The notes beneath the pieces are model-generated. The model had not been told where the DNA came from. It made no database searches and was given only the letters and a program-made list of their open reading frames with translations. 64,000 nt of DNA from an uncultured Alphaproteobacteria bacterium (GTDB lineage: Bacteria > Pseudomonadota > Alphaproteobacteria > UBA7985), in the NCBI GenBank assembly GCA_905479265.1, contig CAJQLX010000024.1, positions 1-64,000 on the forward strand. Reading direction: 5' to 3'. The first letter of the stretch is position 1; the number at the start of each line of letters is the position of its first letter. The position numbers and the translations under genes were made by a program. Shown here in pieces: positions 6,026-63,836 of the stretch.

Positions 6026-6101
6026 ATGACCCCAAAAAAGATCAGCAGCTCTAACGGCCACTTTTTTTCGCAGCCCATTTTGGACTGCATGTTTTTGACA
6101 G

Positions 6102-8142: not shown

Positions 8143-9629
8143 GCGACCTTCTGACTCGGAACGAATATCAGGCGATTGCCGACACGCTGGTGTACCCGCG
8201 CGCTGCCTTTATCGACGGCAAGTACCAAGCGGGTCACGGGGAGACTCTGGCGTCGATCAACCCGGCGACCGGAGAGACGATCGCGGAGATTGCGGCCTGT
8301 AACGCTGACGACGTGGACTTTGCCGTTCAGAAGGCAAAGGAGGCGTTTGAGCAAGGCCATTGGGCCAAAATGCACCCCACTGAGCGCAAAGGTGTGTTGG
8401 TCCGGCTCTCTAAGCTCATGACCCGCAACCGCCGCGAACTCGCGGTCCTGGAAAGCCTGGAAAGCGGCAAGCCGATTGCCGATTGTGAGACCATCGACAT
8501 CCCCGAAAGCATCCACACGATCCTGTGGCACGCCGAAGCGGTCGATAAGATTTACGATCAGACGGGCCCGAGCGGAGACGGCGCGATTTCTATGATCGTG
8601 CGGGAGCCGATTGGCGTGGTGGGTGCTGTATTGCCGTGGAACTTCCCTTTGCTGATGCTGGCGTGGAAAATTGGTCCTGCGCTAGCGGCGGGCTGTTCGG
8701 TGATCGTCAAGCCTGCGGAGCAAACATCCATGACAGCCCTCCGGGTTGCTGAGCTGGCGGCCGAAGCGGGTCTTCCGCGCGGCGTCCTGCAAGTCTTGCC
8801 CGGGGATGGCCCTTCGGTGGGTGAGCCCATCGGCATGCACCCTGACATCGATATGGTCAGCTTTACCGGGTCGACGGAAACGGGCCGGCGGTTCCTGCGC
8901 TATGCGGCGGACAGCAATCTGAAGAAGGTCGTGTTGGAATGCGGCGGCAAGAACCCGGCGGTGGTGCTGGAAGATGCAGAGAACCTCGACCATGTGGCTG
9001 ACAACGTCGTGAATGCAGCGTTTTGGAACATGGGTGAGAACTGTTCCGCCAACTCTCGCTTGATCGTCCACAAAGACGTGAAAGCACCGCTGATGGAGCG
9101 GATTTTGGCACGGGTGCGCGACTGGAAGACGGGCGACCCTCTGGACCCCAGCAACAGCCTTGGCGCGCTGATCGACGCTGAGCATTGCAGCAAGGTCGCG
9201 TCCTTTTTGACCGGCGAAGCGCTGATTGGTGGCGCGATGGACGGTCCCTATTGCCCACCCACCATCTATGAAGTGTCCCGCGATGACAGCCGAGCGATCG
9301 ATGAGATCTTTGGGCCGGTGCTCAGTGTGATTGAAGTGGCATCCATGGATGAGGCGATCGAAGTGGCCAACGACACAGACTACGGTCTCGCCGCGTCTGT
9401 CTTTACCGCAAATGCGCGCAAGGCGCTGCGGGCCGCCCGCGATATTCGCGCGGGAACGGTGACTGTGAATTGCTACGGTGAGGGCGACATCTCCACGCCG
9501 TTTGGCGGTTACAAGCAGTCCGGCTTTGGGGGGCGTGACAACGGCATTCATGCGCACGACCAGTACACCGAGCTCAAGACCATATGGATCGACCTGAACG
9601 ATCCAAAAGACGGAGATAACGTAGCATGA
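8139..9629 (+). CDS. Aldehyde dehydrogenase (NAD(P)+), betaine/semialdehyde type
   Basis: A 496-residue ALDH-superfamily enzyme oxidising an aldehyde to the acid. Visible motifs are PWNFPLLMLAWKIGPALAAG (nucleotide-fold entry), KPAEQTS, FTGSTETGR, the general-base Glu in ECGGKNP, the nucleophile Cys in NMGENCSANSRL, and the distal EIFGPVLSV. The start ATG overlaps the preceding stop in an ATGA, showing tight translational coupling. By context it should oxidise an aldehyde released by an upstream or downstream step of the operon, for example the semialdehyde from the DapA-family enzyme or formaldehyde/aminoaldehyde from amine oxidation. This role is inferred. Confidence 0.92.
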   Translation: MSDLLTRNEYQAIADTLVYPRAAFIDGKYQAGHGETLASINPATGETIAEIAACNADDVDFAVQKAKEAFEQGHWAKMHPTERKGVLVRLSKLMTRNRRELAVLESLESGKPIADCETIDIPESIHTILWHAEAVDKIYDQTGPSGDGAISMIVREPIGVVGAVLPWNFPLLMLAWKIGPALAAGCSVIVKPAEQTSMTALRVAELAAEAGLPRGVLQVLPGDGPSVGEPIGMHPDIDMVSFTGSTETGRRFLRYAADSNLKKVVLECGGKNPAVVLEDAENLDHVADNVVNAAFWNMGENCSANSRLIVHKDVKAPLMERILARVRDWKTGDPLDPSNSLGALIDAEHCSKVASFLTGEALIGGAMDGPYCPPTIYEVSRDDSRAIDEIFGPVLSVIEVASMDEAIEVANDTDYGLAASVFTANARKALRAARDIRAGTVTVNCYGEGDISTPFGGYKQSGFGGRDNGIHAHDQYTELKTIWIDLNDPKDGDNVA

Positions 9630-11176
9630 GCGTAGCAGCAGTCGGTACAGAGCGCCGCGGACGTGGCGCGCGCAAAGCCTCGCGGCAGAAGCGGAACACC
9701 ACCATGCTCCCCGCGCTGCGTCGAAGGCTCCCGCTGACGGAGCCGATGAGCCAAGAGCAGGTGGAGAAGATCGACGCGGCGTCGATGGACATCCTTGAAA
9801 ACATTGGTGTGGTATTTCGCGATGAGATTGCGCTGGAAGATTGGCGCAAGGCCGGCGCCGATGTCCGCGGTGAGACGGTGCATCTGGACCGTGGTTTGGT
9901 GCGTGAGTTGATTGCCAGCATCCCCAGCACCTTCACCATCCACGCTCGAAACCACGCCAACGATTTACCCTTCGGCAACGATCACTCCATTTTCGTACCG
10001 ATGACCGGCGCGCCGTACCTGCGGGACATGGAAGACGTCCGCCGAAACCCGACGCTGGACGATCTGGCGAACTTCCACAAGCTCAGCCACATGCTGCCGG
10101 CCATCCACTCCAGCGCGCATCATATCGTTGAGCCCTACGACCACCCCATCTCGCACCGCCATTTGCGCATCACATACTCGTCGATGAAACACAGCGACAA
10201 AACCTTCATGGGCATGACAACCTCGCCCAAGAATGCCGAAGACGTGATGGATATGTGCGCTGTGCTGTTCGGCGAAGATTATCTCGAAGATCACGCCGTC
10301 TGCACCGGCAACTGCAACGGCAACTCTCCGCTGGTGTGGGACGAGACCATGCTGGGCGCCATGCGCGCCTTTGCCCGGCGCAAGCAGCCGGTTTTGTGCT
10401 CACCGTTCGTCCTTGGCGGCGCCAACACGCCGGCCTCCGTTGCGCCCACGGTCGCACAGCTGAATGCTGAAGCCTTATCCGCCCTCGCTTACACCCAAGT
10501 TGTGCGCAAAGGGACACCGGCGATCTATGGACATTACCTGGCAACGGTTTCCATGAAGTCCGGCGCGCCGATGGCGGGGACACCTGAAATCAGCCTGATG
10601 AACTTCATGATTGGTCAAATGGCGCGGTATTATGACGTGCCGTGGCGGACCTCGAACACGCTGGGTGGGGCTAAGACCTTTGACGCCCAGGCCGGGTACG
10701 AGAGCGCAACAACGATGATGGCCGCGCTCATGTCCGGGGCCAACTATATCTGGCATTCGGCGGGCTGGAATGAAGCGGGCATGCACTGTTCCATGGCGAA
10801 GTTTGTCGTGGATGCTGAGCAGTGCGCCATGGGGTATCGTATGGCGGAGGGTGTGCGCTGGGACGACTTTGACGAAGCGCTGCAGGCCGTTCGCGATGTC
10901 GGACCCGGCGGCCACTATTTGGGCCATCCCCATACGTTAGAGAACTTTCAACGCGCGTTCTTTATGCCCGAAATGTTCGACAACAACTCAATCGAGCAGT
11001 GGCAGGCCGAAGGCTCCGTTGAGATCAACGAACGTGCGCTGCAGCGGGTCAAAGACCTGCTCAATGAATACGAAGAGCCAAAGCTGGACGAAGGCGTTAA
11101 CGAAGCACTGCTGGATTACATTGCCCGTCGAGAGCGTGAAATCCCCGCTGTCGAAGCCTTGAACCAGGATCACTAG
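9626..11176 (+). CDS. MttB-like trimethylamine methyltransferase family protein (non-pyrrolysine)
   Basis: A 516-residue member of the MttB superfamily of corrinoid-dependent N-methyltransferases. The frame is open throughout, with no internal amber codon, so it is a non-pyrrolysine homologue like those demethylating quaternary amines such as glycine betaine, proline betaine or carnitine. Recognisable regions are the acidic N-terminal helical part, SSMKHSDKTFMGM, the G-rich barrel segments with TGNCNGNSPLVWD, and the C-terminal barrel GGAKTFDAQAGYES. No corrinoid protein or methyltetrahydrofolate partner lies beside it, which is odd for a classical methyltransferase system. The ATGA overlap with the aldehyde dehydrogenase shows coupling. 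Substrate and methyl acceptor are unknown. Confidence 0.8.
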   Translation: MSVAAVGTERRGRGARKASRQKRNTTMLPALRRRLPLTEPMSQEQVEKIDAASMDILENIGVVFRDEIALEDWRKAGADVRGETVHLDRGLVRELIASIPSTFTIHARNHANDLPFGNDHSIFVPMTGAPYLRDMEDVRRNPTLDDLANFHKLSHMLPAIHSSAHHIVEPYDHPISHRHLRITYSSMKHSDKTFMGMTTSPKNAEDVMDMCAVLFGEDYLEDHAVCTGNCNGNSPLVWDETMLGAMRAFARRKQPVLCSPFVLGGANTPASVAPTVAQLNAEALSALAYTQVVRKGTPAIYGHYLATVSMKSGAPMAGTPEISLMNFMIGQMARYYDVPWRTSNTLGGAKTFDAQAGYESATTMMAALMSGANYIWHSAGWNEAGMHCSMAKFVVDAEQCAMGYRMAEGVRWDDFDEALQAVRDVGPGGHYLGHPHTLENFQRAFFMPEMFDNNSIEQWQAEGSVEINERALQRVKDLLNEYEEPKLDEGVNEALLDYIARREREIPAVEALNQDH

Positions 11177-41186: not shown

Positions 41187-42887
41187 TCAAACATCCTGAC
41201 CAAGACGCGCCTGCTCGTAGGCGTTGCTGATTTCTTCGTCACTGAGGCCATAATCATCGCGCGCTGACTGCGCGCTAATGTAGCCTCGGACCAAATCGCG
41301 CAGGACGTGTGCGCGATTTCGCGCACTGGCGATGCCATAACCGCCGCCGCCGGGAAAAGCGAGCATGACGCGCTGACCGTGCGGAACGTACTGCCGCCCC
41401 TTGCCGCGCATCGCGCCACCGTCACTGCGCGCAATGGTCGTTGGCGCCCCCTGTCCGCCGCCCACGCGCCCGAGGGCCGGATGATCCACCCGGTCGAACA
41501 TGGCGGAGAAATCGAATTCGTGGCCGTCCTGTGCGCCGACCTCCATGTATTGGCCTAAGCCGCCCCGAAACTCACCCACGCCGCCGCTATCCGGGCGCAG
41601 CTCTTTGCGCCAAATGATGACCGGACCCGCGTGCTCAGTCGCTTCGACCGGCATGGTCATCACACCGCTGGGAAAGGCTGTCGCATTCAGGCCATCGACA
41701 CGAGGCCGAGCGCCCGAACCGCCAGAGTTAAACGTCAGCACCTCTGACCGCCGAGCGTGCTCCGGCGCTGGCGCGTCTGTCCGAGGGCGGAGCGAAACTT
41801 GGAAGTTACACAGCGTCCCAGCCCCTTGGGCGGGAACCGTGCGTGGCAGCAACTGGTCCAGCGCTTCGTAAACGGTGTCGGGCACCATGTGGCCAATGAC
41901 GTGACGCAGAGCGACCGGTGCCGGATGAACCGCATTGACGATGGAATTCTCCGGCGCAATCACCTCAAACGGTGCCAGCGACGCGGCGTTGTTCGGGATT
42001 TCAGGCGCAATGGCGCACTTGATCGCGTAACAGGTGTAAGCCTTGGTGTAGACCATTGGGACGTTGATCCCTTTGGCATCCAAACCCGATGTTCCGTCAA
42101 AGTCAGCCAAAACACGGTCTTCCATGATCTCCAGCCGCACCCGCAGATCAACGGGCTTGCTGTAGCCATCAATCGTCATGGCACCGTGCGCAACACCATG
42201 ATCGAGCGCATTGATCTTCTCCAACGTCGCCCGACGCGAGTTTTTGAGGATAAAGGTCGAGACCTCACCCAGATCATCGAGGGCAAACTCGTCCATCATT
42301 TCAATCAACCGGCGATGGCCAATCTCGTTGCAGGTTGCCAGTGCATAGACATCACCCACCAGCTGATCCGGCTCGCGCACGTTGCCACGAATGATCCGCA
42401 TCAGCGTTTCATCGACCTTGCCTTGGTCCGCAAAACGCATGATGGGGATATACAGCCCCTCCTCGTAAATCGAGTTCGCATCCGCACCAAAACCGCGCCC
42501 ACCAATATCGACGATATGCGCTGTACACGCGAAATAGCCCACCAACGCCCCGTGCTTAAACGACGGTGTAACCACTGTAATATCATGCAGGTGGCCGGTG
42601 CCTTCCCATGGATCATTGGTGATGTAGACGTCACCATCTTTCATCGTCTCCACACCAATGCGCCGCATGAAGTGCGGGACGGCATCAGCCATGGCGTTCA
42701 CATGCCCCGGCGTGCCGGTTACCGCCTGCGCCAGCATCCGGCCTTGTGCGTCATAGACGCCTGCGGACAGGTCACCGGCTTCGCGGACCGATGTTGAAAA
42801 CGCGGTGCGCACCAGCGCCTGAGCCTGCTCTTCAACAACCGAAATCAGTCGGTTCCACATGACTTGCTTGGATACAGTCGATGCCAT
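41187..42887 (-). CDS. Hydantoinase B/oxoprolinase family protein (HyuB)
   Basis: A 566-residue HyuB-family subunit. VYITNDPWEGTGHLHDITVVTPSF is its diagnostic NDP-x-x-GGTH-type motif, with DFDGTSGL and a Gly-rich GGSGARPRVDGL. It pairs with HyuA for ATP-dependent ring opening of hydantoin- or 5-oxoproline-like compounds, or carboxylation in related enzymes. Gap of 4 bases to the hyuA stop. Confidence 0.88.
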   Translation of the reverse strand: MASTVSKQVMWNRLISVVEEQAQALVRTAFSTSVREAGDLSAGVYDAQGRMLAQAVTGTPGHVNAMADAVPHFMRRIGVETMKDGDVYITNDPWEGTGHLHDITVVTPSFKHGALVGYFACTAHIVDIGGRGFGADANSIYEEGLYIPIMRFADQGKVDETLMRIIRGNVREPDQLVGDVYALATCNEIGHRRLIEMMDEFALDDLGEVSTFILKNSRRATLEKINALDHGVAHGAMTIDGYSKPVDLRVRLEIMEDRVLADFDGTSGLDAKGINVPMVYTKAYTCYAIKCAIAPEIPNNAASLAPFEVIAPENSIVNAVHPAPVALRHVIGHMVPDTVYEALDQLLPRTVPAQGAGTLCNFQVSLRPRTDAPAPEHARRSEVLTFNSGGSGARPRVDGLNATAFPSGVMTMPVEATEHAGPVIIWRKELRPDSGGVGEFRGGLGQYMEVGAQDGHEFDFSAMFDRVDHPALGRVGGGQGAPTTIARSDGGAMRGKGRQYVPHGQRVMLAFPGGGGYGIASARNRAHVLRDLVRGYISAQSARDDYGLSDEEISNAYEQARLGQDV

Positions 42888-42891
42888 GATG

Positions 42892-44961
42892 TTACCCTTT
42901 CACCTGAAGGTCGATGCAGCCATCCGCTTGAACGCTGGCCGAGCGGCTAGAAGGGACGATGATTGTGGTTTCGTCCTCAGTAATAATGGCCGGCCCAGAA
43001 ATCCGCTGACCCAGCGTGAAGGTATCCCGCTCGATCACGGGTGCCTCAACCGTCCGTCCCAATGCGGCGTCAAAAACCGTACGCGTCCCCTGCGGTAGAG
43101 CGTCAGCAGTTGCGGCGGTTGCGGGCACGCGCTCTGCTTTGGGCGTCGGCGTGGTTGCGTTAACGGCCCAAACCGTCGCTTCAATCTCCAACCCCGCAAC
43201 GGTGCGCCCAAACAGTTGGGTGTAGTCACGCTCGAACAAGGCTTGAAACGTCGCTCGATCCGGTTTGGCCGCTTGCTCAGCCGTCAGGTTGATGGGGATT
43301 TCCCACCCCTGCCCTCGGTACCGCATATAGACCTTATATTCCGCCTCAATCGGCGCGTTGGCGTCACAAGAACGGACGAACGTCGTCGCCTCCTCGCGCA
43401 GCTCTGCGAGTGTTGAGGCAATGATCGACGGCTCAAAGGCTTTGAACTCCACAAACACCGACCGCGTGGCTTCGAAGCTGAAGGGGGCTTTGAGGAAGCC
43501 AATAGCAGAGCCAACGCCTGCGCCCGTTGGCACCAAGCAGCGATGAATCCCCAATTTCTCGCACAAGCGTGCGGCGTGAAGCGGTGCCGCGCCGCCGAAT
43601 GCGATCATGGTATAGTCGCTCAAGTCTTCGCCGTTTTCGACCGCATGAACCCGCGCTGCGTTAGACATGTTTTCATCCACGACTTCCGTTAATCCGTAAG
43701 CCGCCTCAACAGCATCCAAATCCAACTTTTCACCAATGTGGGCGCGTATGGCGGCGCTCGACGCGGCCTTGTCCAGCGGGATCGTGCCCCCGGCAAAGTT
43801 GTCAGGATCCAGCTTGCCTTGCAGCAGGTCGCCATCGGTAACCGCTGGACGCTCACCACCCCGGCCATAGCACGCCGGACCGGGTTCCGAGCCAGCTGAT
43901 TCCGGTCCAACACGGATCTGGTTCAAGGCATCCACGTGCGCCAAAGACCCGCCTCCAGCACCGATTTCGACCATATCGATGACAGGGATCGAGATGGGCA
44001 TCCCCGATCCCTTCTTGAAGCGATAGGTGCGGGCAACTTCGAACACGCGTGCGGTTTTGGGGGTTTGATCCTTGATCAAGCAGATTTTGGCCGTAGTGCC
44101 CCCCATGTCGAACGACAGCACTTTATCCAGATCGTGACGCCCCGCGATGTGCGCAGCGAAAACAGCACCGCCCGCAGGACCACTCTCCACCAATCGCACC
44201 GGGAATTCAGCCGCATTTTCCAGCGAGATAATCCCGCCGCCCGAGTGCATCAAGAAGATTGGACAATCCGTACCTTGCTCTCTCAAGCGCCCGGCCAACC
44301 GTCCCAAATAGGACTTCATCAACGGCTTGATATACGCATTGGCTGCCACGGTATTGAAGCGCTCGTATTCGCGCATCTGTGGTGAAACCTCACAAGACAG
44401 CGAAAGCGCCACGTTCGGCAAGCGCTGGGCAAAGACCTCGCCAATCAACCGCTCATGCTGGTCGTTCAGGTAAGAGTGTAGCAGCCCAACGGCGACACTC
44501 TCGTAGCCCGCTGCATCAATCGTGTCACACAGCGCCTCGACCTCAGCCCGGTCCAGCGGGATCAGAACGTCACCGTTGGCATCAATCCGCTCGCTGACGG
44601 TCAGGCGTTGCTGGCGTGGCAGCAAGGGGTCCGGCAGGACCAAGTCCAGATCGTACTGCTCAAACCGGCTTTCAGTCCGCATTTCGATGACATCACGAAA
44701 ACCTTGCGTGGTGATCAGCGCCGTCTTCGCCCCACGGCGTTCAATAAGCGCGTTGGTGGCCAGCGTTGTACCGTGGATAATCTGCTCAATCGCCGAAGCC
44801 GGAACCCCAGCGCGCTCGCATACGCGGTTCATGCCTTCGATGATGGCATTCTCCGGTGCGGCGTAGGTGGTCAGCACCTTGATCGACGTGAGCCCCTTGG
44901 GACTTTCCAGAACAACGTCCGTAAACGTACCGCCAATATCGACGCCCAGCCGAACTTCCAT
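42892..44961 (-). CDS. Hydantoinase A/oxoprolinase family protein (HyuA)
   Basis: A 689-residue ATP-binding subunit. GVDIGGTFTDVVLE is the nucleotide-binding motif, SFDMGGTTAKICLI the second phosphate-binding loop, and IVPSSRSASVQ is near the C-terminus. The ATG at 44961 has an AGGAG site at nine bases; the frame from 45030 is longer but less likely. Paired with HyuB. N-methylhydantoin is one typical substrate of such pairs, consistent with the window's other N-methyl genes, but this is unproven. Confidence 0.88.
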   Translation of the reverse strand: MEVRLGVDIGGTFTDVVLESPKGLTSIKVLTTYAAPENAIIEGMNRVCERAGVPASAIEQIIHGTTLATNALIERRGAKTALITTQGFRDVIEMRTESRFEQYDLDLVLPDPLLPRQQRLTVSERIDANGDVLIPLDRAEVEALCDTIDAAGYESVAVGLLHSYLNDQHERLIGEVFAQRLPNVALSLSCEVSPQMREYERFNTVAANAYIKPLMKSYLGRLAGRLREQGTDCPIFLMHSGGGIISLENAAEFPVRLVESGPAGGAVFAAHIAGRHDLDKVLSFDMGGTTAKICLIKDQTPKTARVFEVARTYRFKKGSGMPISIPVIDMVEIGAGGGSLAHVDALNQIRVGPESAGSEPGPACYGRGGERPAVTDGDLLQGKLDPDNFAGGTIPLDKAASSAAIRAHIGEKLDLDAVEAAYGLTEVVDENMSNAARVHAVENGEDLSDYTMIAFGGAAPLHAARLCEKLGIHRCLVPTGAGVGSAIGFLKAPFSFEATRSVFVEFKAFEPSIIASTLAELREEATTFVRSCDANAPIEAEYKVYMRYRGQGWEIPINLTAEQAAKPDRATFQALFERDYTQLFGRTVAGLEIEATVWAVNATTPTPKAERVPATAATADALPQGTRTVFDAALGRTVEAPVIERDTFTLGQRISGPAIITEDETTIIVPSSRSASVQADGCIDLQVKG

Positions 44962-45029
44962 GCCAACCTGCTCCTGTGGTTCTGCCCCAAATTGAGGATC
45001 ACTTTCTCCCGCAGGAGCGCTCAATGCCA

Positions 45030-45035
45030 ATTATA
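45030..45035 (-). promoter_or_regulatory. -10 element upstream of hyuA
   Basis: A perfect TATAAT (complement of ATTATA) lies 69 bases before the hyuA ATG, in the 101-base gap after the LysR gene; no good -35 is visible. It suggests that hyuAB can be transcribed on its own. Confidence 0.35.
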
Positions 45036-45950: not shown

Positions 45951-47468
45951 CTACTCCCCCCGTGGATAGCGTTGATTATCTTCCAACACGTTCAGGTCCA
46001 TGTGATTACGCATGTAGCGTTCGCTGGCTTGCTGCAAGGGTTGAAAGTCCCAAGGATAGTATTGACCATTGCGCAAGGCGTCGTAAACCACCCAGCGCCG
46101 CGCCTGACTTTCCCGAACCTGCGCATCAAAGAGCGGTAAATCCCAGCGCTGGTCCGCCATTGCGCGCAGCCGGCTTAGGGCATCGTGGTGGGCTGGATCA
46201 TCGGCGAGATTGTGCAATTCATGGGGATCAGCGTCGAGGTCGAACAGCTGCTCTGGATCCAACGTGCAGCGCACATACTTGTAGCGCGCATCACGCAGTG
46301 CCACCAATGGCGCATAGGATCCCTCGGCGGCGTATTCCATCGCCACTGGCTCCGACCGCTGCCCGCCTTGTCCCAACGGAACCAAGGATTGCCCTTCGGT
46401 CCACGGCGACAATTCTGACAGATCCGCCCCCGCCAACGCACCCAGCGTTGCTGTCACGTCGATGGTTGAGACCGGGGTTTTCACCAGTCCGGGCGCCATA
46501 TCCGCGTCTGCAATCATCAGCGGCACCCGCGCTGAGCCCTCAAAGAACGTCATCTTGAACCACAGGCCGCGCTCGCCCAGCATATCACCGTGATCGCTGA
46601 CAAAAACAACAGTCGCCTCTTGGCGTGTTGCTTCCAATGCCCCCAGCAATTCCCCCACTTTATCATCCAGATAAGAAATGTTGGCAAAGTACGCGCGACG
46701 ACTGCGGATGATGTCTTCACGCTGTATGTCAAAGCTGCGCCAATCATTAGCGTCGAAAATGCGCTTGGAATGGGGGTCTTGCTGCTCATAGCCCAAATCC
46801 GCAATTTCCGGTTCGAGATGCGCGCAGTCTTCGTATAAATCCCAATACTTCTTGCGCGTGACATAGGGATCGTGGGGATGGGTAAAGCTGACCGTCAGGC
46901 ACCAAGGCCGATCATCGCCGCTCTTTTGCGCGCCACGCCCCAAGTCGTAAATCTTTTGGACACCATGAAAAGCGACCTCGTCGTCGAATTCCATCTGGTT
47001 GCTGATTTCAGACACCCCAGCGCCCGTGACCGAGCCCATGTTGTGATACCACCAATCGATGCGCTCACCCGGCTTCCGATAGTCGGGGGTCCAGCCGAAA
47101 TCGGCGGGATAGATGTCTGTGGTCAGCCGCTGCTCAAAACCATGGAGTTGATCCGGCCCCACAAAGTGCATTTTCCCCGACAAGCACGTCTGATACCCCG
47201 CACGGCGCAAATGATGAGCGTAGGTTGGAATGTCTGAGGCGAACTCCGCAGCGTTGTCGTAAACCCGCGTACGGCTCGGCAAAAGCCCACTCATAAAACT
47301 CGCCCGGCCCGGCGCACACAGCGGACTGGCGGTATAGGCGTTCTGGAACCGTGTGGAACGTTGGGCCAAGGCCCGCAGGTTTGGGGCGTGCAACCATGGG
47401 GCTGGCCCATCGGGAAACAGCGTTCCGTTGAGTTGATCAACCATGATTACCAGAATGTTTTTTGCCAC
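45951..47468 (-). CDS. betC: Choline-sulfatase
   Basis: A 505-residue type I sulfatase. SPLCAPGRASFMSGLLPSRT contains the C-x-P-x-R formylglycine signature. ILVIMVDQLNG gives the first metal ligands, SGKMHFVGPDQLHGFE and TTDIYPADFGWTPDY are typical of BetC, and VFVSDHGDMLGERG holds the second metal site. The tail YMRNHMDLNVLEDN also fits BetC. It releases choline and sulfate from choline-O-sulfate, an osmolyte. A sulfatase-modifying enzyme gene is not in the window. Confidence 0.88.
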   Translation of the reverse strand: MAKNILVIMVDQLNGTLFPDGPAPWLHAPNLRALAQRSTRFQNAYTASPLCAPGRASFMSGLLPSRTRVYDNAAEFASDIPTYAHHLRRAGYQTCLSGKMHFVGPDQLHGFEQRLTTDIYPADFGWTPDYRKPGERIDWWYHNMGSVTGAGVSEISNQMEFDDEVAFHGVQKIYDLGRGAQKSGDDRPWCLTVSFTHPHDPYVTRKKYWDLYEDCAHLEPEIADLGYEQQDPHSKRIFDANDWRSFDIQREDIIRSRRAYFANISYLDDKVGELLGALEATRQEATVVFVSDHGDMLGERGLWFKMTFFEGSARVPLMIADADMAPGLVKTPVSTIDVTATLGALAGADLSELSPWTEGQSLVPLGQGGQRSEPVAMEYAAEGSYAPLVALRDARYKYVRCTLDPEQLFDLDADPHELHNLADDPAHHDALSRLRAMADQRWDLPLFDAQVRESQARRWVVYDALRNGQYYPWDFQPLQQASERYMRNHMDLNVLEDNQRYPRGE

Positions 47469-52110: not shown

Positions 52111-52998
52111 ATGGCTACGCCTGATCCCCGCTACTTGAGCGGTCTCCCCGTTAAAAAACGTATTCTGGCCGAAGTTGCCGAGGCCATTAGCGCCCTCTCT
52201 GGCGCTGCGCCCTTGCCGCGGTTGGTATCCATCTCCATCGGCGATACCCCGGAAGTCGCCGTGTATATTCGCGGGCAAAAGCGTGCGGCAGAACAGGTTG
52301 GTTTGCCGTTTGATGACCAGTATTGGCCCGGTGATATCACGGCTGAAGACGCCAAAGCGCGGCTGGTGGCAATGAATGATGATCCTGACGTTTTGGGCGT
52401 TATTTTGCAGCGTCCGGTTCCAGAGCACTTGAACGTCCGCTCGCTCCAAGGCGCTATTCACCCGCTTAAAGATGTCGAAGGCATGAACCCGGCGTCGATC
52501 GGTAATATGGTCTATAACGACTTGGCGCTGGCACCCTGTACAGCCGCGGCATCGGTTGAGATGATCAAAGCGACGGGTTTAGACCTGCATGGTCTGGAAG
52601 TCGTGATGATTGGTCATTCCGCGATTGTCGGCAAACCAGCGGCGTTCATGCTGATGGCCGAAGGCGCGACTGTGACGGTCTGTCACCACATGACCCGCTC
52701 GGTCGCTGCGCACTCGCGGCGGGCTGATGCAATCTTGGTCGCTGTCGGCATTCCGAACTTTATTACCCCAGAAATGGTCCGTCCCGGCGCGGCTGTGATC
52801 GACATTGGCATCAACCAAATCGACGATGGAGCCGGCGGAACGCGGATTGTCGGTGACGTTGATACAGAGGCGGTCAAAGAGGTTGCGAGTTGGGTAACGC
52901 CTGTACCGGGCGGCGTTGGTCCGGTTACCGTCGCTATCCTCATGCGCAATGCCCTCACCGCCTTGCGCCGTCAGCGTGAATTGGGGTGGACGGCATGA
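52111..52998 (+). CDS. folD: FolD-family methylene-THF dehydrogenase/cyclohydrolase paralogue with altered active site
   Basis: A 295-residue FolD-fold protein. VSISIGDTPEVAVYIRGQKR, VILQRPVPEHL, IHPLKDVEGMNP, MIGHSAIVGKPAA and ITP-like VTPVPGGVGPVTVA show the family. Aligned by eye with E. coli FolD, the catalytic Lys56 (YVASK) falls on Gln (YIRGQ), and Asp121 (KDVDG) on Glu (KDVEG). The LPLP segment reads RPVP. It may therefore be a dehydrogenase with reduced cyclohydrolase activity, or act on another C1-folate, and is likely a paralogue of a housekeeping FolD. Context: followed by a micropeptide, and 3.4 kb from tmm. Confidence 0.85.
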   Translation: MATPDPRYLSGLPVKKRILAEVAEAISALSGAAPLPRLVSISIGDTPEVAVYIRGQKRAAEQVGLPFDDQYWPGDITAEDAKARLVAMNDDPDVLGVILQRPVPEHLNVRSLQGAIHPLKDVEGMNPASIGNMVYNDLALAPCTAAASVEMIKATGLDLHGLEVVMIGHSAIVGKPAAFMLMAEGATVTVCHHMTRSVAAHSRRADAILVAVGIPNFITPEMVRPGAAVIDIGINQIDDGAGGTRIVGDVDTEAVKEVASWVTPVPGGVGPVTVAILMRNALTALRRQRELGWTA

Positions 52999-56390: not shown

Positions 56391-57731
56391 ATGTCAAAGC
56401 GAGTTGCCATCATCGGCGCAGGTCCGTCGGGTCTGGCACAGTTGCGAGCGTTTCAGTCTGATCAAGCCAAGGGCGCAGACATTCCAGAGGTTGTTTGTTT
56501 TGAAAAGCAAAGCGATTGGGGTGGTCTGTGGCGCTATGATTGGCGGACGGGTCTCGATGCTAAGGGTGAGCCCGTTCATGGGTCCATGTACCGCTATCTT
56601 TGGTCCAATGGTCCAAAGGAAGGGCTGGAGTTCGCTGATTACTCCTTTGACGAACATTTTGGAAAACCCATTGCGAGCTATCCGCCGCGGGCGGTGTTGT
56701 TCGACTATATCGAGGGCCGGGTTAAGAAGGCTGGAATCCGCGACTGGATCCGCTTTGAAACAGCCGTGCGCCGCGTGGAAGAGACCGCTGCTGGCGGATT
56801 TCGCGTGGTTTCAGAAGACCTCAACAGTGGTGAAGAAACCGACGAGCACTTTGACCATGTCGTCGTCGCCTCCGGGCACTTCTCAACCCCCAATGTGCCA
56901 CACTACCCGGGCTTTGACCGCTTTGGTGGCCGGATCCTGCACGCGCATGATTTCCGGGACGCCGTCGAGTTCAAAGATCAGGATATTCTGATCCTCGGCT
57001 CCTCCTATTCCGCCGAAGATATTGGATCCCAGTGCTGGAAATACGGTGCGAAGTCGATCACGTGTTGCTACCGCACCGCACCGATGGGGTACGACTGGCC
57101 AGACAACTGGAAAGAAGTGCCCGCGCTGCAGCGGCTTGAGGGCAAGACAGCGCACTTTAAGGACGGTACCTCTCAGGCCGTGGATGCCATTATTCTCTGC
57201 ACGGGCTACTTGCACCACTTCCCGTTCATGGAAGAGAAACTGACACTCAAGACCACAAACCGGCTGGCGACGGCGGACCTGTTCAAGGGCGTTGCTTTCG
57301 TCGGGAACACGGATCTGTTCTACTTGGGCATGCAGGACCAATGGTACACATTCAACATGTTCGACGCACAAGCATGGTGGGTTCGAGATGCCATCATGGG
57401 CCGCATTTCCGTGCCCACGGACCCCAAGGCGCTGGCCGCTGACGTCGCGGCCCGTGAAGCGGAAGAAGAGGCGCAGGCCGATGGCTATGGCCCCATTGTG
57501 TATCAGGGTGCTTACGTCAAAGAGCTGATGGATGAAACGGACTACCCCAGCTTTGACGTTGAGGTCGCCAACCAAGCTTTCAAAGAGTGGAAAGGCCACA
57601 AGAAGAAAAACATCATGACGTTCCGAGACAATGGCTATGTTTCTCCGCTCAGCGGCAAACGAGCGCCAGCGCACCATACGCCATGGAAAGACGCCCTCGA
57701 CGATAGTATGGAAGCGTACTTGAAGTCGTAA
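56391..57731 (+). CDS. tmm: Trimethylamine monooxygenase (flavin-containing, Tmm)
   Basis: A 446-residue [23 protein letters not shown] is the FAD motif, [14 protein letters not shown] and [10 protein letters not shown] are highly characteristic of bacterial Tmm, [10 protein letters not shown] is the NADPH motif and FMO-like segment, and YLHHFPF and [17 protein letters not shown] close the protein. It oxidises trimethylamine (and can oxidise dimethyl sulfide) using NADPH and oxygen. The ATG has AGAGGG upstream. The downstream TMAO demethylase and TMAO importer genes are not in the window. Confidence 0.95.
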
Positions 57732-58645: not shown

Positions 58646-59692
58646 TTAGTCGTCCTCGGGCCATGTACCCAGCGAAGTTTCCGCACCATCGTCAAACTGC
58701 GACAAGTACTCAAGAATAGCCGGACGGTTATCGATGAAACCCTTGTAGGTCGCCAACTCAACCGGCAAATCCCGCAACACGCGATGCAAGCGCCGGCCCC
58801 ATTTGGGCTGGCTGACCAAATCCTGCAAGCTGATCAGGTAACAGCGGATCGGAAACACCAGCGCATTGGACCGCGGCAAGCGCCAGAAAGACTGGAGCTC
58901 CACCCGCAGGTGCTGTTTGGTGCCAATATTTTCGGAGGTGAGCGTGGTCTTTTGAATGCCCCACTTGTGATAGTTTTCCGGGCTGGTATCGAGCAGTGGG
59001 TTCACCGTCATGGTCCAGTTCAAACGACGCGCAGGCGCGCCAATCTGGACCGCCGTCAGGAACTTCAGCGCGCGCTGGAAAATCCCCAACTCGTGCGCCA
59101 AAGGAACCGGCGCGTGCCATTCGAAAAAGTTCATGCCGATGTCAAAATCAAGCGACCAGTCAGCCTGAGTGGTCACCATGCCGGCGTCCATCCAGAGGTT
59201 GCCTTCGCGTTGATCCAGAACGCAGAAATCGCCCTGCGCTTGGCGCGTGATGTATTCCATCGGGCCGTAAGGCAGAGTGGTTTCATCACCAAAGGTAAAG
59301 GTATCATCGATGCCCAATGGCCGGTTGATCCAATGCCAGCGGTCGCCGTCTTGGTGCAGCGTGAACAAGTCAGGATAGTCCTTGGCCTTTGCGACCATGA
59401 TCAACTCAAGCAAGTCCCACCCGGCCAGCGTCATATGCGGCAGGGATTGGCACCGCAGCGGGTCGTCAGCGAGCACCAAAGCCCGGTCCCGCATCTCTGA
59501 GACGTAATGCTCATCCACATCAAACGATTTTTCATAGACGCTTCCGGCGCGCACGGGGGTGTGCGGCTCCATATTGACGGCGTACATGTAGCTGTCTTTG
59601 TCGAACGGGAAAGGAAACCGCTTGATGGCCTCCGGTGAGTTCGAGAAGCTGTAGTCGTCACGAAAAGTCTCGTCTTTAAAGACCATGCCCAT
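58646..59692 (-). CDS. dmmC: Dimethylamine monooxygenase heme subunit (DUF3445/HODM family)
   Basis: A 348-residue DUF3445 heme-dependent oxidative N-demethylase. NRPLGIDDTFTFGDETTLPYGPMEYI, NFFEWHAPVPLAHELGIF and LRVELQSFWRLPRSNALVFPIRCYL are family-typical; the histidines near HAPVP and R-rich segment would sit by the heme. AAGGAGGGT precedes the ATG. Last of the dmmDABC operon: it oxidises dimethylamine to monomethylamine plus formaldehyde with electrons from DmmB. Subunit letters follow my recollection of the described order D-A-B-C. Confidence 0.85.
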   Translation of the reverse strand: MGMVFKDETFRDDYSFSNSPEAIKRFPFPFDKDSYMYAVNMEPHTPVRAGSVYEKSFDVDEHYVSEMRDRALVLADDPLRCQSLPHMTLAGWDLLELIMVAKAKDYPDLFTLHQDGDRWHWINRPLGIDDTFTFGDETTLPYGPMEYITRQAQGDFCVLDQREGNLWMDAGMVTTQADWSLDFDIGMNFFEWHAPVPLAHELGIFQRALKFLTAVQIGAPARRLNWTMTVNPLLDTSPENYHKWGIQKTTLTSENIGTKQHLRVELQSFWRLPRSNALVFPIRCYLISLQDLVSQPKWGRRLHRVLRDLPVELATYKGFIDNRPAILEYLSQFDDGAETSLGTWPEDD

Positions 59693-59727: not shown

Positions 59728-60717
59728 CTAGCGCTCCAAAACCAATTTGCTCCCGGAAAAGCGCGACATGCAGGGCATAATCGCCTGCTTGCTGGCGCGC
59801 TGTTCGTCGGTCAGCCAGTGGTCGTTGTGTTCGATGGTCCCATCGCAGGCGATGATCTTGGTTTCGCACTGTCCGCACGCACCACCCCGGCACATGTACG
59901 GCGCATCCACGCCGGCTGCCTCGATCGCTTCCAACAGCGACTGCCGCTCGCCCACGTCGACGGTTAGACCGCTTTTGGCAAGCTCCACCGTGAAGGGCTG
60001 ACCCGGTTGTGGTGCGACGAATTCCTCGTGGTGGATGTTCTCAATCGGCCAGCCAACCGACCGGGCTTGATTGATCACAATATCGATCATGGGCTTTGGA
60101 CCACAAACATAGAGGTGCGTGCCCAAGGGCTGGCGCGCCATCACGCCGGTCAAGTCGCGGTCGGGGTCTTCGTTATCGAAGTAAGTGGTCAGGCTGACGG
60201 CTGCATCATCACTAAGGTCCGCCAAATACGCCGTTTTGGCCGGCTCGCGGGTGAAGTAGTGCAGCTCAAAGTCTGCTTTGCCGGCGGTCCCCAATCGACC
60301 TTTTTGCGCCTTCAGCTGCTTGATCTGGCTGAGGAACGGGGTGATCCCGATCCCGCCGGCAATCATCAGGTGCTTTGACGCTGTACGATCGAGGGAAAAC
60401 AGGTTGTTCGGCATGGAAAGACGAACCCGGTCGCCCTGCTTTAGCTTGGTGTGCAGATAGAGCGAACCGCCCCGCCCCCCGTCATCTCGGCGCACCGAAA
60501 TGGCGTAAGTCGCCGTATCAGAGGGGTCACTCATCAAAGAGTATGGGTTCAGGCGTCGGGTTCCATCGTCGTCCATCTCAACGACCACATGCGCGCCACC
60601 GGAAAACGGGGGAAAGGCGTGGCCGTCAGCCCGTTGGAACTCAAACCGCTTGATCTCGTCGGTGACCTCAACAATGTCTGAAACAACAACGTCCAACTTC
60701 AGTTTCTCGTTGCTCAT
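59728..60717 (-). CDS. dmmB: PDR/VanB-type ferredoxin-reductase subunit of dimethylamine monooxygenase
   Basis: A 329-residue reductase. N-terminal flavin-binding barrel (NPYSLMSDPSDTATYAISVRR), NAD-binding part (IAGGIGITPFLSQIKQLK and YVCGPKPMIDIVI) and a C-terminal plant-type ferredoxin cluster (MCRGGACGQCETKIIACDG; C-x4-C-x2-C). It passes electrons from NAD(P)H to the heme subunit. The ATG overlaps the dmmA stop (ATGA). Confidence 0.92.
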   Translation of the reverse strand: MSNEKLKLDVVVSDIVEVTDEIKRFEFQRADGHAFPPFSGGAHVVVEMDDDGTRRLNPYSLMSDPSDTATYAISVRRDDGGRGGSLYLHTKLKQGDRVRLSMPNNLFSLDRTASKHLMIAGGIGITPFLSQIKQLKAQKGRLGTAGKADFELHYFTREPAKTAYLADLSDDAAVSLTTYFDNEDPDRDLTGVMARQPLGTHLYVCGPKPMIDIVINQARSVGWPIENIHHEEFVAPQPGQPFTVELAKSGLTVDVGERQSLLEAIEAAGVDAPYMCRGGACGQCETKIIACDGTIEHNDHWLTDEQRASKQAIMPCMSRFSGSKLVLER

Positions 60718-61325
60718 GGAAACACCTCCTCAGCCGGGGGGACGTTGCCGTGGTCTTCGGCGTCGATGCGAACCGCTTGAAACGCAGCAAGGCGACGAGA
60801 ATAATGGTCGCGCACGAACAGATGCAGATCGCAGTGGGGGCACTGATAGGGATCAGTGGTGACATCCTCGGCAATCCCCTTGCAATGCACGCACTGAACA
60901 CGGCGGGCCAAGGAGCCTCGATGCTCGGTCTGGATCGACATGTGGGAGATACCGGCGGCCATGATATCGCGCATGGCCTGGCCCATCAGTCCTTCGGTGC
61001 CTGTGAGGTAGAATTGGGTGCCCATTCGGCAGTCTTCCAGCGACCGCACCAAGCGGTTAAGCGCGCTGGATATATGAGAGGCGACGTAAAACTTCGGGGC
61101 GCCCAAAGCCTTTAACGCTGCCTGAAACGTCTCGCCGCTGCGGCCCGGCACGTAAATGATATGGGCCGCGCTCCAGAAGTCTTTGTCCGCCACTTTCGCC
61201 ACGTCGAGGATGGCTTCTGCCCCCTCTGCGTTGGCCACAAAGACATGCTCGGACCCTGTGCGGGCCTCCAACACGCCGTAAACCGGGCGGCTTTTGATCG
61301 AGGGTTCAAAATGGGTTTTGGTCAT
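60714..61325 (-). CDS. dmmA: Dimethylamine monooxygenase subunit DmmA family protein
   Basis: A 203-residue protein. A central domain with IIYVPGRSGETFQAALKALGAPKFYVASH and FYLTGTEGLMGQAM is followed by a zinc-ribbon-like CVHCKGIA...CPHCDLHLFVRDHYSRR. The ATG at 61325 is far inside a longer open frame that has no gene upstream. Associates with the heme and reductase subunits. Confidence 0.85.
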   Translation of the reverse strand: MTKTHFEPSIKSRPVYGVLEARTGSEHVFVANAEGAEAILDVAKVADKDFWSAAHIIYVPGRSGETFQAALKALGAPKFYVASHISSALNRLVRSLEDCRMGTQFYLTGTEGLMGQAMRDIMAAGISHMSIQTEHRGSLARRVQCVHCKGIAEDVTTDPYQCPHCDLHLFVRDHYSRRLAAFQAVRIDAEDHGNVPPAEEVFP

Positions 61326-61363
61326 AGAATCCGTCACCGATGGTTTGATCGTCGAAAACGGGA

Positions 61364-61399
61364 AATCGTGCGAGCGCTCTAGACCAAACTCGCACGATT
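61364..61399. promoter_or_regulatory. Perfect 11-bp inverted repeat between dmmD and dmmA
   Basis: AATCGTGCGAG and CTCGCACGATT pair perfectly around a 14-base loop in the 91-base gap between dmmD and dmmA. It could be an mRNA stem setting subunit ratios, or an attenuator, since a weak T-rich stretch follows. Confidence 0.65.
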
Positions 61400-61416
61400 G
61401 CCGAGGAGTGCGCTGC

Positions 61417-62550
61417 TTAGCCTTTGGCTGTGCGGCGCTTCTTGTCTGGGTCGTAAAATGGCATGGAGTGCGCCTTACACGCCACGTCACCACTTTCGTT
61501 GGCGACCACCATTTCCGTCCCGTCAACGGCGCAATCAACCGGCATCCGCGCGATACCGACGTTGTGCTTGTTCACGCTGGAGTACATGCCAACAGTGACG
61601 ACGCCCACTTGCTTGCCGTCCTTCATCAGCGGCGCCCCTTCGTCAGCGGGGGTTGTACCGTCGAGCATCACACCGTAAATCTTAAAGCGCTCCTTGCCCT
61701 TGAGCCGGTAGTGCTCCTCCGCACCGCGGAAACCCACTTTGCCCGGAGACACGGTAAAGTCGAGGCCGAGCTCCCATAAGGTGTCGCCGGTGACGTCGTT
61801 CTCAAACGGGTACATTTCAGAGTTATCGTAAGGGAAGAACAGCAGGTAGGATTCCGCGCGGAGCAAATCCAGCGTGGTAAAGCGCGTCGGGATGATGCCC
61901 ATCGGCGCGCCTTCTTCAACGATCCGGTCCCAGATGGTCGGCGCGTCTTGGCCACGACAGAAAATCTCGTAACCGCGCTCCCCCGTGTACCCCGTGCGCG
62001 AAATCATGACCGGCAGGTCAAACAGCGCGGTCTGCATGTGCGCAAAGTACGGCAGATCCCGGATACCCGGAACGTAGGTGCTCAGAAACTCAACCGACAG
62101 CGGACCTTGAAACGAAATATCGTGCAGGTTGTCGTCAAAGCGGATCGAAACATCACGGCCCGTTGCGGCCATGGTCAGCGCCTCGTGACCTGCGCCAGAA
62201 CCGTGTACAACCATCCAAGCGTTCGGGCCGGTGCGGTAGATCACACAATCATCCACGAACTTGCCCGCTTCGTTGAGCATGCAGGCGTAGCTTGAGCGAC
62301 CCGGCTTGATCTTCTCTACATTCCGCGTGGTGGCGCGATCAATCACGTGAGACGCGTGCGGACCGGTGATGTGCACCTTCTTCAGACCCGACACGTCCAT
62401 CACACCTGCTTTGGTGCGGATGGCAACGTACTCTTCTTCTTGGTTCTTATCGTAGGTCCAGGCTGTTCCCATACCGGACCAATCTTCGAGCGTTGAGCCC
62501 ATCGCGCGGTGGCGTTCACCCAGCGTGGAAAATCTCCAGGAAGCGGTCAT
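61417..62550 (-). CDS. dmmD: GcvT-family folate-dependent protein DmmD
   Basis: A 377-residue aminomethyltransferase-fold protein. Regions GVMDVSGLKKVHITGP, YACMLNEAGKFVDDCVIY, ISRTGYTGERGYEIF and TLDLLRAESYLLFF match GcvT/DMG-dehydrogenase C-terminal domains that bind tetrahydrofolate. It leads the dmm operon. By family, it transfers the C1 unit released by demethylation to folate, preventing free formaldehyde. This folate role links it with the FolD paralogue at 52111. Confidence 0.85.
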   Translation of the reverse strand: MTASWRFSTLGERHRAMGSTLEDWSGMGTAWTYDKNQEEEYVAIRTKAGVMDVSGLKKVHITGPHASHVIDRATTRNVEKIKPGRSSYACMLNEAGKFVDDCVIYRTGPNAWMVVHGSGAGHEALTMAATGRDVSIRFDDNLHDISFQGPLSVEFLSTYVPGIRDLPYFAHMQTALFDLPVMISRTGYTGERGYEIFCRGQDAPTIWDRIVEEGAPMGIIPTRFTTLDLLRAESYLLFFPYDNSEMYPFENDVTGDTLWELGLDFTVSPGKVGFRGAEEHYRLKGKERFKIYGVMLDGTTPADEGAPLMKDGKQVGVVTVGMYSSVNKHNVGIARMPVDCAVDGTEMVVANESGDVACKAHSMPFYDPDKKRRTAKG

Positions 62551-62939: not shown

Positions 62940-63836
62940 ATGTGTGGAATTGTTGGATTGTTTCTTAAGGACGACAGCTTGTCTCCTCAGCTGGGGGGGA
63001 TGTTGTCAGAAATGCTGGTGACCATGACCGATCGCGGCCCGGACAGTGCGGGCATCGCGCTCTATGGTGCCTCGGAAGGCTCTAGCTTCAAGGTGACCGT
63101 TCAGTCTGATGACCCTGCGACCGGGTTCAACGGTTTGGCAGCCCACCTGTCAGCAGCAACCGGAAGCCCTTGTCGTATCGAGGAAAAATCCACCCACGCC
63201 GTCATTTCAACCGATGGCGACAATGCTGAAAAGCTGGTCGCACACCTGCGCGATGCGCACAGTGCGCTGCGGATCATGTCCACCGGCGACAGCATGGAAA
63301 TCTACAAAGAAGTCGGCCTGCCCAAGGATGTCGCAGCCCGCTTCAACATCAACCAGATGAGTGGCACGCACGGCATTGGCCACACGCGGATGGCGACTGA
63401 GTCTGCCGTTACCACCATGGGCGCGCACCCCTTCTCAACCGGCGCGGACCAGTGCCTTGTCCACAACGGCTCGCTGTCGAATCACAACAGCCTGCGCCGT
63501 CGCCTGCGCCGCAATGGTGTGCATATCGAGACCGAGAACGATACTGAAGTCGCAGCCGCTTACCTGACACACCGCATGAATCAGGGGCGCAACCTTGGTG
63601 AAGCGCTCGAAGACAGCCTCGACGACCTCGACGGCTTCTTCACCTTTGTCGTCGGAACGAAGAATGGCTTTGGCGTGTTGCGCGATCCGATTGCTTGCAA
63701 GCCCGCCGTGATGGCCGAGACCGATCAGTATGTCGCCTTTGGCTCTGAATACCGCGCTCTGGTCTCCCTGCCCGGCATCGACACCGCGCGTGTTTGGGAG
63801 CCTGAGCCTGCCAACGTTTACTTCTGGGAGCGCTAA
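62940..63836 (+). CDS. mgsA: N-methylglutamate synthase subunit A (class II glutamine amidotransferase type)
   Basis: A 298-residue Ntn-hydrolase of the GlxB/GltB glutaminase type. After the start Met comes Cys (MCGIVGLF), the nucleophile; MTDRGPDSAG, GIGHTRMATESAVT and CLVHNGSLSNHN complete the site. It supplies part of the enzyme that makes N-methylglutamate from gamma-glutamylmethylamide. First gene of the mgs operon, facing dmm. Confidence 0.9.
   Translation: MCGIVGLFLKDDSLSPQLGGMLSEMLVTMTDRGPDSAGIALYGASEGSSFKVTVQSDDPATGFNGLAAHLSAATGSPCRIEEKSTHAVISTDGDNAEKLVAHLRDAHSALRIMSTGDSMEIYKEVGLPKDVAARFNINQMSGTHGIGHTRMATESAVTTMGAHPFSTGADQCLVHNGSLSNHNSLRRRLRRNGVHIETENDTEVAAAYLTHRMNQGRNLGEALEDSLDDLDGFFTFVVGTKNGFGVLRDPIACKPAVMAETDQYVAFGSEYRALVSLPGIDTARVWEPEPANVYFWER

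Follow-up and report, generated by a model that had tools for sequence, protein, structure and literature searches.

A conserved FolD sister clade in Alphaproteobacteria with changes indicating remodelling of both the active site and the cofactor pocket, probably a 5,10-methylene-THF dehydrogenase

Seven key active-site residues have been listed for the human bifunctional methylene-THF dehydrogenase/cyclohydrolase (Tyr52, Lys56, Gln100, Leu101, Asp125, Gly273 and Gly276), and Arg173, His196 and Ser197 of the human DHCH bind the 2'-phosphate of NADP (PMC3368264). The lysine acts as general acid/base in the cyclohydrolase step and the aspartate positions the pterin (PMC3338484); the lysine also aids the dehydrogenase step (PMC3368264). 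Replacement of this lysine in E. coli FolD (K54N) left approximately 19% of the dehydrogenase activity and no detectable cyclohydrolase (PMC5688156).

Monofunctional dehydrogenases of the FolD fold are known from yeast, where Mtd1 (1edz) is an NAD-dependent methylene-THF dehydrogenase without cyclohydrolase; the proteins described below are not a new kind of system. Human mitochondrial MTHFD2 has an oxidative, NAD-linked role, and it uses NAD with both of its phosphate-binding arginines present (PMC9173628). In methylamine-using methylotrophs of the genus Paracoccus, the FolD of a folD-purU pair is devoted to oxidising CH2=THF (PMC4543880). For marine alphaproteobacteria the oxidation of methyl groups from trimethylamine (TMA), glycine betaine and related compounds has been drawn via a bifunctional FolD (PMC4744692, PMC3160333), and the former paper lists folD together with fhs, tmm and tdm and labels it a dehydrogenase/cyclohydrolase. 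An fhs null mutant of Ruegeria pomeroyi failed to grow when glycine betaine was the carbon source; with choline it grew poorly, and formate partly rescued this growth (PMC4744692).

The window analysed here is a stretch of 64,000 nucleotides from contig CAJQLX010000024.1 of an uncultured alphaproteobacterium. The initial annotation of one of its genes described a FolD paralogue with both catalytic residues substituted and proposed that it might be dehydrogenase-only. In the literature searched, with most subscription journals outside its coverage, no description was found of a FolD subfamily in which the cyclohydrolase lysine is replaced. Proteins of the kind encoded in the window, with glutamine in place of that lysine, are called Q-type here and their gene Q-folD.

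Residue changes and predicted fold

Residues were numbered after E. coli K-12 FolD (b0529, record NC_000913). In the MAFFT alignment, query residues Q56, Q100, R101, E123, H169 and H193 fell opposite E. coli K54, Q98, L99, D121, A167 and R191. Residues were counted in 43 aligned Q-type members, the query among them, and in 27 ordinary FolDs; members L032 and L035 were omitted for reasons of frame. The features of the window and the counts for the changed residues are collected in Table 1.

Table 1. Features of the window that bear on the Q-type FolD gene, with residue counts for Q-type members and ordinary FolDs
Feature	Position	Strand	Basis
Q-type FolD homologue, 295 aa, probable monofunctional 5,10-methylene-THF dehydrogenase	52111..52998	+	Open ORF
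Gln56 codon (E. coli K54, human K56); cyclohydrolase lysine lost	52276..52278	+	Q in 43/43 members; K in 26/27 ordinary FolDs
Arg101 codon (E. coli L99, human L101); QRPVP loop	52411..52413	+	R in 43/43; L in 26/27 ordinary
Glu123 codon (E. coli D121, human D125); pterin-binding acid	52477..52479	+	E in 43/43; D in 27/27 ordinary
His169 codon (human R173); NADP 2'-phosphate site	52615..52617	+	H in 43/43; R in 25/27 ordinary; role of R173 as described in PMC3368264
His193 codon (human S197, E. coli R191); NADP 2'-phosphate site	52687..52689	+	H in 43/43; S in 25/27 ordinary
tmm, trimethylamine monooxygenase, upstream pathway	56391..57731	+	NF058570, 790.6 bits, cut-off 675
Probable dimethylamine monooxygenase subunit	58646..59692	-	Position only, beside reductase and DmmA-family genes; no NCBIfam match
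Flavin/2Fe-2S reductase, probable dimethylamine monooxygenase reductase subunit	59728..60717	-	Reductase families under cut-off; subunit name by position
Dimethylamine monooxygenase subunit DmmA family	60714..61538	-	NF041259, 108.3 bits, cut-off 60
GcvT-like protein, DmmD candidate, predicted 5,10-methylene-THF source	61417..62550	-	Tdm and GcvT model matches under cut-offs
N-methylglutamate synthase subunit A candidate	62940..63836	+	Locus L067

The substitutions that had been noticed by eye proved real. The replacement of lysine by glutamine was found at E. coli position 54 (the "Lys56" of the initial annotation is the human number), Asp121 was replaced by glutamate, and the change from LPLP to RPVP reflects an arginine at the position of Leu99. 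Two MAFFT alignments that included E. coli FolD concurred, and chance or misalignment was ruled out as the source of the substitutions. Calling both residues catalytic was slightly loose, because Asp121 binds the pterin instead of doing chemistry (PMC3338484). Beyond the changes listed earlier, histidine was fixed at positions 167 and 191, so that Gln54, Arg99, Glu121, His167 and His191 were common to all 43 members. Position 54 of the ordinary FolDs held cysteine in the single sequence without lysine. Ser47, invariant in the 27 ordinary FolDs, was also replaced in the Q-type. Altogether three of the seven key residues of the human enzyme (Lys56, Leu101 and Asp125) and two of the three 2'-phosphate binders are replaced; the query reads H/H/H at human R173/H196/S197, the first and third being replaced in 43/43 members. 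Tyr52 and Gln100 (E. coli Tyr50 and Gln98) were retained in the query, as were their counterparts in every member. Against the NCBIfam FolD models the query scored 263.4 bits at best (cut-off 411), and it lay below the curated cut-off in the best 25 of 30 models matched. A separate loss of the lysine, with cysteine at position 54, was seen in Bacteroidota in a FolD of Paludibacteraceae (L042:8481-9344).

No lysine stood at position 54 of a Q-type member in any alignment. A substitute lysine nearby was ruled out as well: there is no conserved replacement, because position 55 varies (lysine in 7/43) and position 56 is mostly arginine (38/43; mostly lysine in ordinary FolDs). This bears on the view that the Q-type is still bifunctional, the positive charge having moved from Lys54 to Arg99 and the acid having been lengthened to Glu121, with hydrolysis carried out by the re-arranged site. 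Fixation of Arg99 and Glu121 along with Gln54 in 43/43 members fits such a rearrangement, as does the position of Arg99, which corresponds to human Leu101, one of the seven key residues (PMC3368264). We nevertheless regard it as quite unlikely, since arginine serves poorly as a general base, a conserved lysine has not newly arisen around position 54, and E. coli K54N was without detectable cyclohydrolase (PMC5688156).

An AlphaFold2 model, for which 29 members and relatives had been aligned, had the FolD fold (mean pLDDT 92.9). VIA-align Z values of the model were 39.3 with H. pylori FolD, 39.2 with human MTHFD2, 37.0 with E. coli FolD and 30.3 with yeast 1edz. The Q-type shares its fold and length, Tyr50 and Gln98, and the Rossmann core with the bifunctional FolD/MTHFD enzymes, and differs from them in the fixed changes of Lys54 to Gln, Leu99 to Arg and Asp121 to Glu and in the histidines at 167 and 191. 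MTHFD2 is 37% identical to the query and serves as a model for an oxidative, NAD-linked role; it retains the lysine (Lys88) that the Q-type has lost, together with cyclohydrolase and the two phosphate-binding arginines, according to PMC9173628. The FolD of the Paracoccus plasmid pAMI5, from a methylotroph, differs from the Q-type in having the ordinary lysine, QLPLP and KDVDG and in working with PurU. The fold of yeast Mtd1 is like that of the Q-type; in sequence the two match only at E 2.5e-9. The active-site lysine is, we assume, likewise absent from Mtd1, and we infer that its loss in the Q-type was independent. Comparison with MtdA gave a match over residues 143-195 only (E 0.077) and no full-length similarity.

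The proposal that the protein is dehydrogenase-only gains support from the loss of the cyclohydrolase lysine, the FolD fold with Gln98 and Tyr50 kept, and the published K54N variant. The prediction is made mainly because that variant keeps dehydrogenase and loses cyclohydrolase. Sah and Varshney (2015) are said to have found E. coli D121A poor in both activities; as the lysine also aids the dehydrogenase step, the Q-type protein could therefore be weak. A preference for NAD is suggested because two of the three residues binding the 2'-phosphate are replaced, and as a guess from the two histidines the Q-type is possibly NAD+-preferring. Against this, MTHFD2 uses NAD with its arginines kept (PMC9173628), and histidines can hold phosphate, which makes the assignment a tentative one.

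Distribution and conservation of the subfamily

The scan of bacterial genomes returned 41 loci, made up of 34 at 69 to 79% identity to the query and seven FolDs of other kinds at 34 to 39%. Neighbourhoods were compared at 45 loci (the 34 from the scan, eight from a further set, two plasmid loci and the window). Among the 144 alphaproteobacterial genomes of the class sample, 10 encoded a protein with a score over 330 bits, whereas no further match exceeded 213.1 bits; these 10 and two more genomes of the same order are the 12 Q-type genomes referred to below. Open reading frames around the loci were called with composition scores, and miscalls are possible, e.g. beside the FchA gene of genome G013. 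Members at 56 to 60% identity carried the same changes as the query in the alignment.

A maximum-likelihood tree with 71 rows, which did not contain yeast Mtd1, placed the Q-type in one clade on one side of a single branch with a support of 100/100. The Q-type is confirmed as a FolD sister clade that is conserved and whose residue changes indicate remodelling of both the active site and the cofactor pocket. A pseudogene was ruled out, the gene being intact and constrained. The related view, that of a degenerating duplicate without selected function, would agree with the patchy presence of the gene (10/144 genomes of the class sample and 0/5 congeners, only one of the five assemblies being at least 90% complete). 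It is highly improbable in view of the identity of 56 to 79% maintained across the class, the invariance of five changed residues in 43/43 members, and the 32 of 34 closer loci that were free of stops over the match.

Public records label Q-type proteins as "bifunctional" dehydrogenase/cyclohydrolase (L065:13998-14873 and L066:13986-14897). That label is probably wrong for the Q-type and finds no support in the sequence.

A search of phages gave matches that were all below 60% identity and furnished no lead. One contig filed as the actinobacterium Enemella evansiae (L032) carried an alphaproteobacterial-looking folD, Q-folD and tdm; it is probably a contaminant.

Co-occurring cyclohydrolase genes

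The genome to which the window belongs (2.89 Mb in 61 contigs, 96% complete) contains a standard folD besides the Q-type gene, in agreement with the description of the latter as a paralogue. This ordinary copy (G000:C11:24278-25075) encodes a protein with 36% identity to the query, in which the usual lysine is present along with QLPLP, KDVDG, GRS and HSRT. An independent cyclohydrolase candidate was found in all 12 Q-type genomes, namely an ordinary FolD in 11 (ordinary by score in each, nine of them aligned) and a divergent FolD plus FchA in G013. The divergent FolD (L070:5028-5915, minus strand) has kept the lysine and the aspartate, has glutamate in place of Gln98 and has lost QLPLP; it is adjoined by the FchA gene (G013:C6:342386-342916), the sole FchA among the 12 genomes. 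Ordinary folD is a common housekeeping gene and its co-presence is therefore expected; it fits the dehydrogenase-only hypothesis without proving it.

Ordinary folD was adjacent to Q-folD at 9/45 loci, or at 10 if L032, where only the folD end was in view, is counted. The gaps in these tandems ranged from minus 4 to 59 bases, and an overlap of 4 bp occurred once, in the gene order fdh, fdhF, fhs, folD, Q-folD, tdm. Such very short gaps or overlap, taken with the changes in the pterin-binding aspartate and its neighbour leucine, would suit a protein that acts on a different pterin or folate derivative or serves as a non-catalytic or regulatory partner in a mixed dimer with ordinary FolD. Most loci are not tandem, however, and the protein has retained Tyr50, Gln98, the Rossmann core and, as glutamate, an acidic group; we consider this explanation very unlikely.

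Gene neighbourhoods and predicted role in C1 oxidation

A C1 gene or an adjacent folD lay near Q-folD at 21/45 loci; at the remaining 24/45 none was seen close by. The annotated order in Ponticoccus alexandrii is NAD(P)H-dependent oxidoreductase subunit E, fdhF, fhs, folD, Q-folD and tdm. Formate dehydrogenase alpha was encoded directly upstream in L003, L004 and L005 (verified in L005, 733.5 bits) and nearby in L015 (892.7 bits). Tdm followed Q-folD in L028 and L031 (verified) and, judging from clustering or from the start of the sequence, in L030, L032, L033, L035 and L043, and sarcosine oxidase alpha was found near Q-folD in L052. Neighbours in SAR116 that had been taken by eye for formate dehydrogenase were not counted; L012:2718-5594 was without an NCBIfam match at 1e-60.

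Fhs exceeded the cut-off in 68/144 genomes of the class sample, comprising 10/10 with the Q-type vs 58/134 without it (Fisher p=3.8e-4, ancestry ignored). The median number of GcvT-domain matches was 15 in Q-type genomes vs 2 in the others (Mann-Whitney p=6.6e-6) and, among genomes with Fhs only, 15 vs 6 (p=6.9e-4), with at most 17 candidates scored per genome and ancestry ignored in both comparisons. The case for Fhs as the deciding partner was weakened by the congeners (one assembly at least 90% complete), 5/5 of which have Fhs yet 0/5 the Q-type. A tie to PurU was ruled out, PurU being over the cut-off in only 2/12 Q-type genomes.

From its position near tmm and dmmD the initial annotation had drawn a specialised role in C1 oxidation. 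The role itself is consistent with the neighbours in relatives and with the high count of THF-binding GcvT-type domains; the special tie to tmm and dmm found no support, a nearby C1 gene having gone unseen at 24/45 loci. A general tie to TMA use was ruled out, Tmm occurring in only 4/12 Q-type genomes, and the link of Q-folD to trimethylamine is local. Past the end of the window the same contig continues with mgsB, mgsC and a type III glutamine synthetase (GmaS-like) (L067). Elsewhere in this genome (L068), fhs follows a formate dehydrogenase whose NuoE/NuoF-type subunit is a fusion, in an fdh-fdhF-fhs cluster. No PurU over the cut-off was found in this genome, which in this respect, and in the presence of Fhs, differs from the Paracoccus pair.

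The reading we favour, and judge to be probable from the residue changes and gene context, is that the Q-type is a dehydrogenase-only 5,10-methylene-THF oxidase in C1 oxidation, on a route from CH2=THF to formate. The analysis establishes the residue changes and their fixation, the clade, the predicted fold and the accompanying genes; its activity, its lack of cyclohydrolase, its direction and its cofactor are what we infer here. With Tyr52, Gln100 and the Rossmann domain kept, the protein would oxidise CH2=THF by hydride transfer to a nicotinamide cofactor and, without the proton-shuttling lysine for ring opening, would release methenyl-THF. The ordinary FolD of the same cell (FchA where it is missing) would hydrolyse this to 10-formyl-THF, from which, in the present genome, Fhs would yield formate and ATP, and NAD-type formate dehydrogenase would then yield CO2. 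In this scheme the Q-type would draw off the methylene-THF that THF-dependent demethylations supply (in this genome DmmD and the N-methylglutamate route) and direct it into oxidation. This would place it at the CH2=THF dehydrogenase step of the pathway described for R. pomeroyi (PMC4744692).

A dehydrogenase-only enzyme might instead act chiefly as a reductase, converting methenyl-THF that originates from formate into CH2=THF to supply the serine cycle or biosynthesis. Fhs is reversible, and the Q-folD of Ponticoccus alexandrii lies beside fhs and serine-cycle genes. The usual neighbours, however, either yield CH2=THF (Tdm, sarcosine oxidase and DmmD) or, in the case of formate dehydrogenase, oxidise formate, and Q-type genomes are rich in GcvT-type domains, which makes a mainly reductive role unlikely.

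Extending the favoured oxidative, dehydrogenase-only role, it is possible, if doubtful, that many alphaproteobacteria split the catabolic FolD in two, with an NAD+-specific dehydrogenase-only FolD and an ordinary FolD acting as cyclohydrolase. The tandem loci would then be translationally coupled and their products perhaps physically paired, with methenyl-THF handed over, and C1 oxidation would be freed from the NADP pool and made one-way. If the catabolic copy were dehydrogenase-only and NAD-linked, the redox bookkeeping of the pathway would change, the automatic "bifunctional" annotation would be wrong for the whole subfamily, and an old question, how oxidative and biosynthetic C1 flux are kept apart on one THF pool, would become testable.

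Several other genes of the window were recorded. A choline-sulfatase is encoded at 45951-47468 (minus strand; 867.7 bits vs a cut-off of 433.45), which fits feeding on methylated nitrogen compounds. A two-gene pair at 41187-45030 (minus strand) is nearest to caprolactamase/acetophenone carboxylase subunits, under the cut-off. The 516-aa product of 9626-11176 (plus strand) is presumably, as judged by eye, an MttB-type trimethylamine methyltransferase; its gene adjoins those for an aldehyde dehydrogenase and two short-chain dehydrogenases. At 2120-6061 (minus strand) a protein of 1313 aa is encoded with many cadherin-like repeats recognized by eye.
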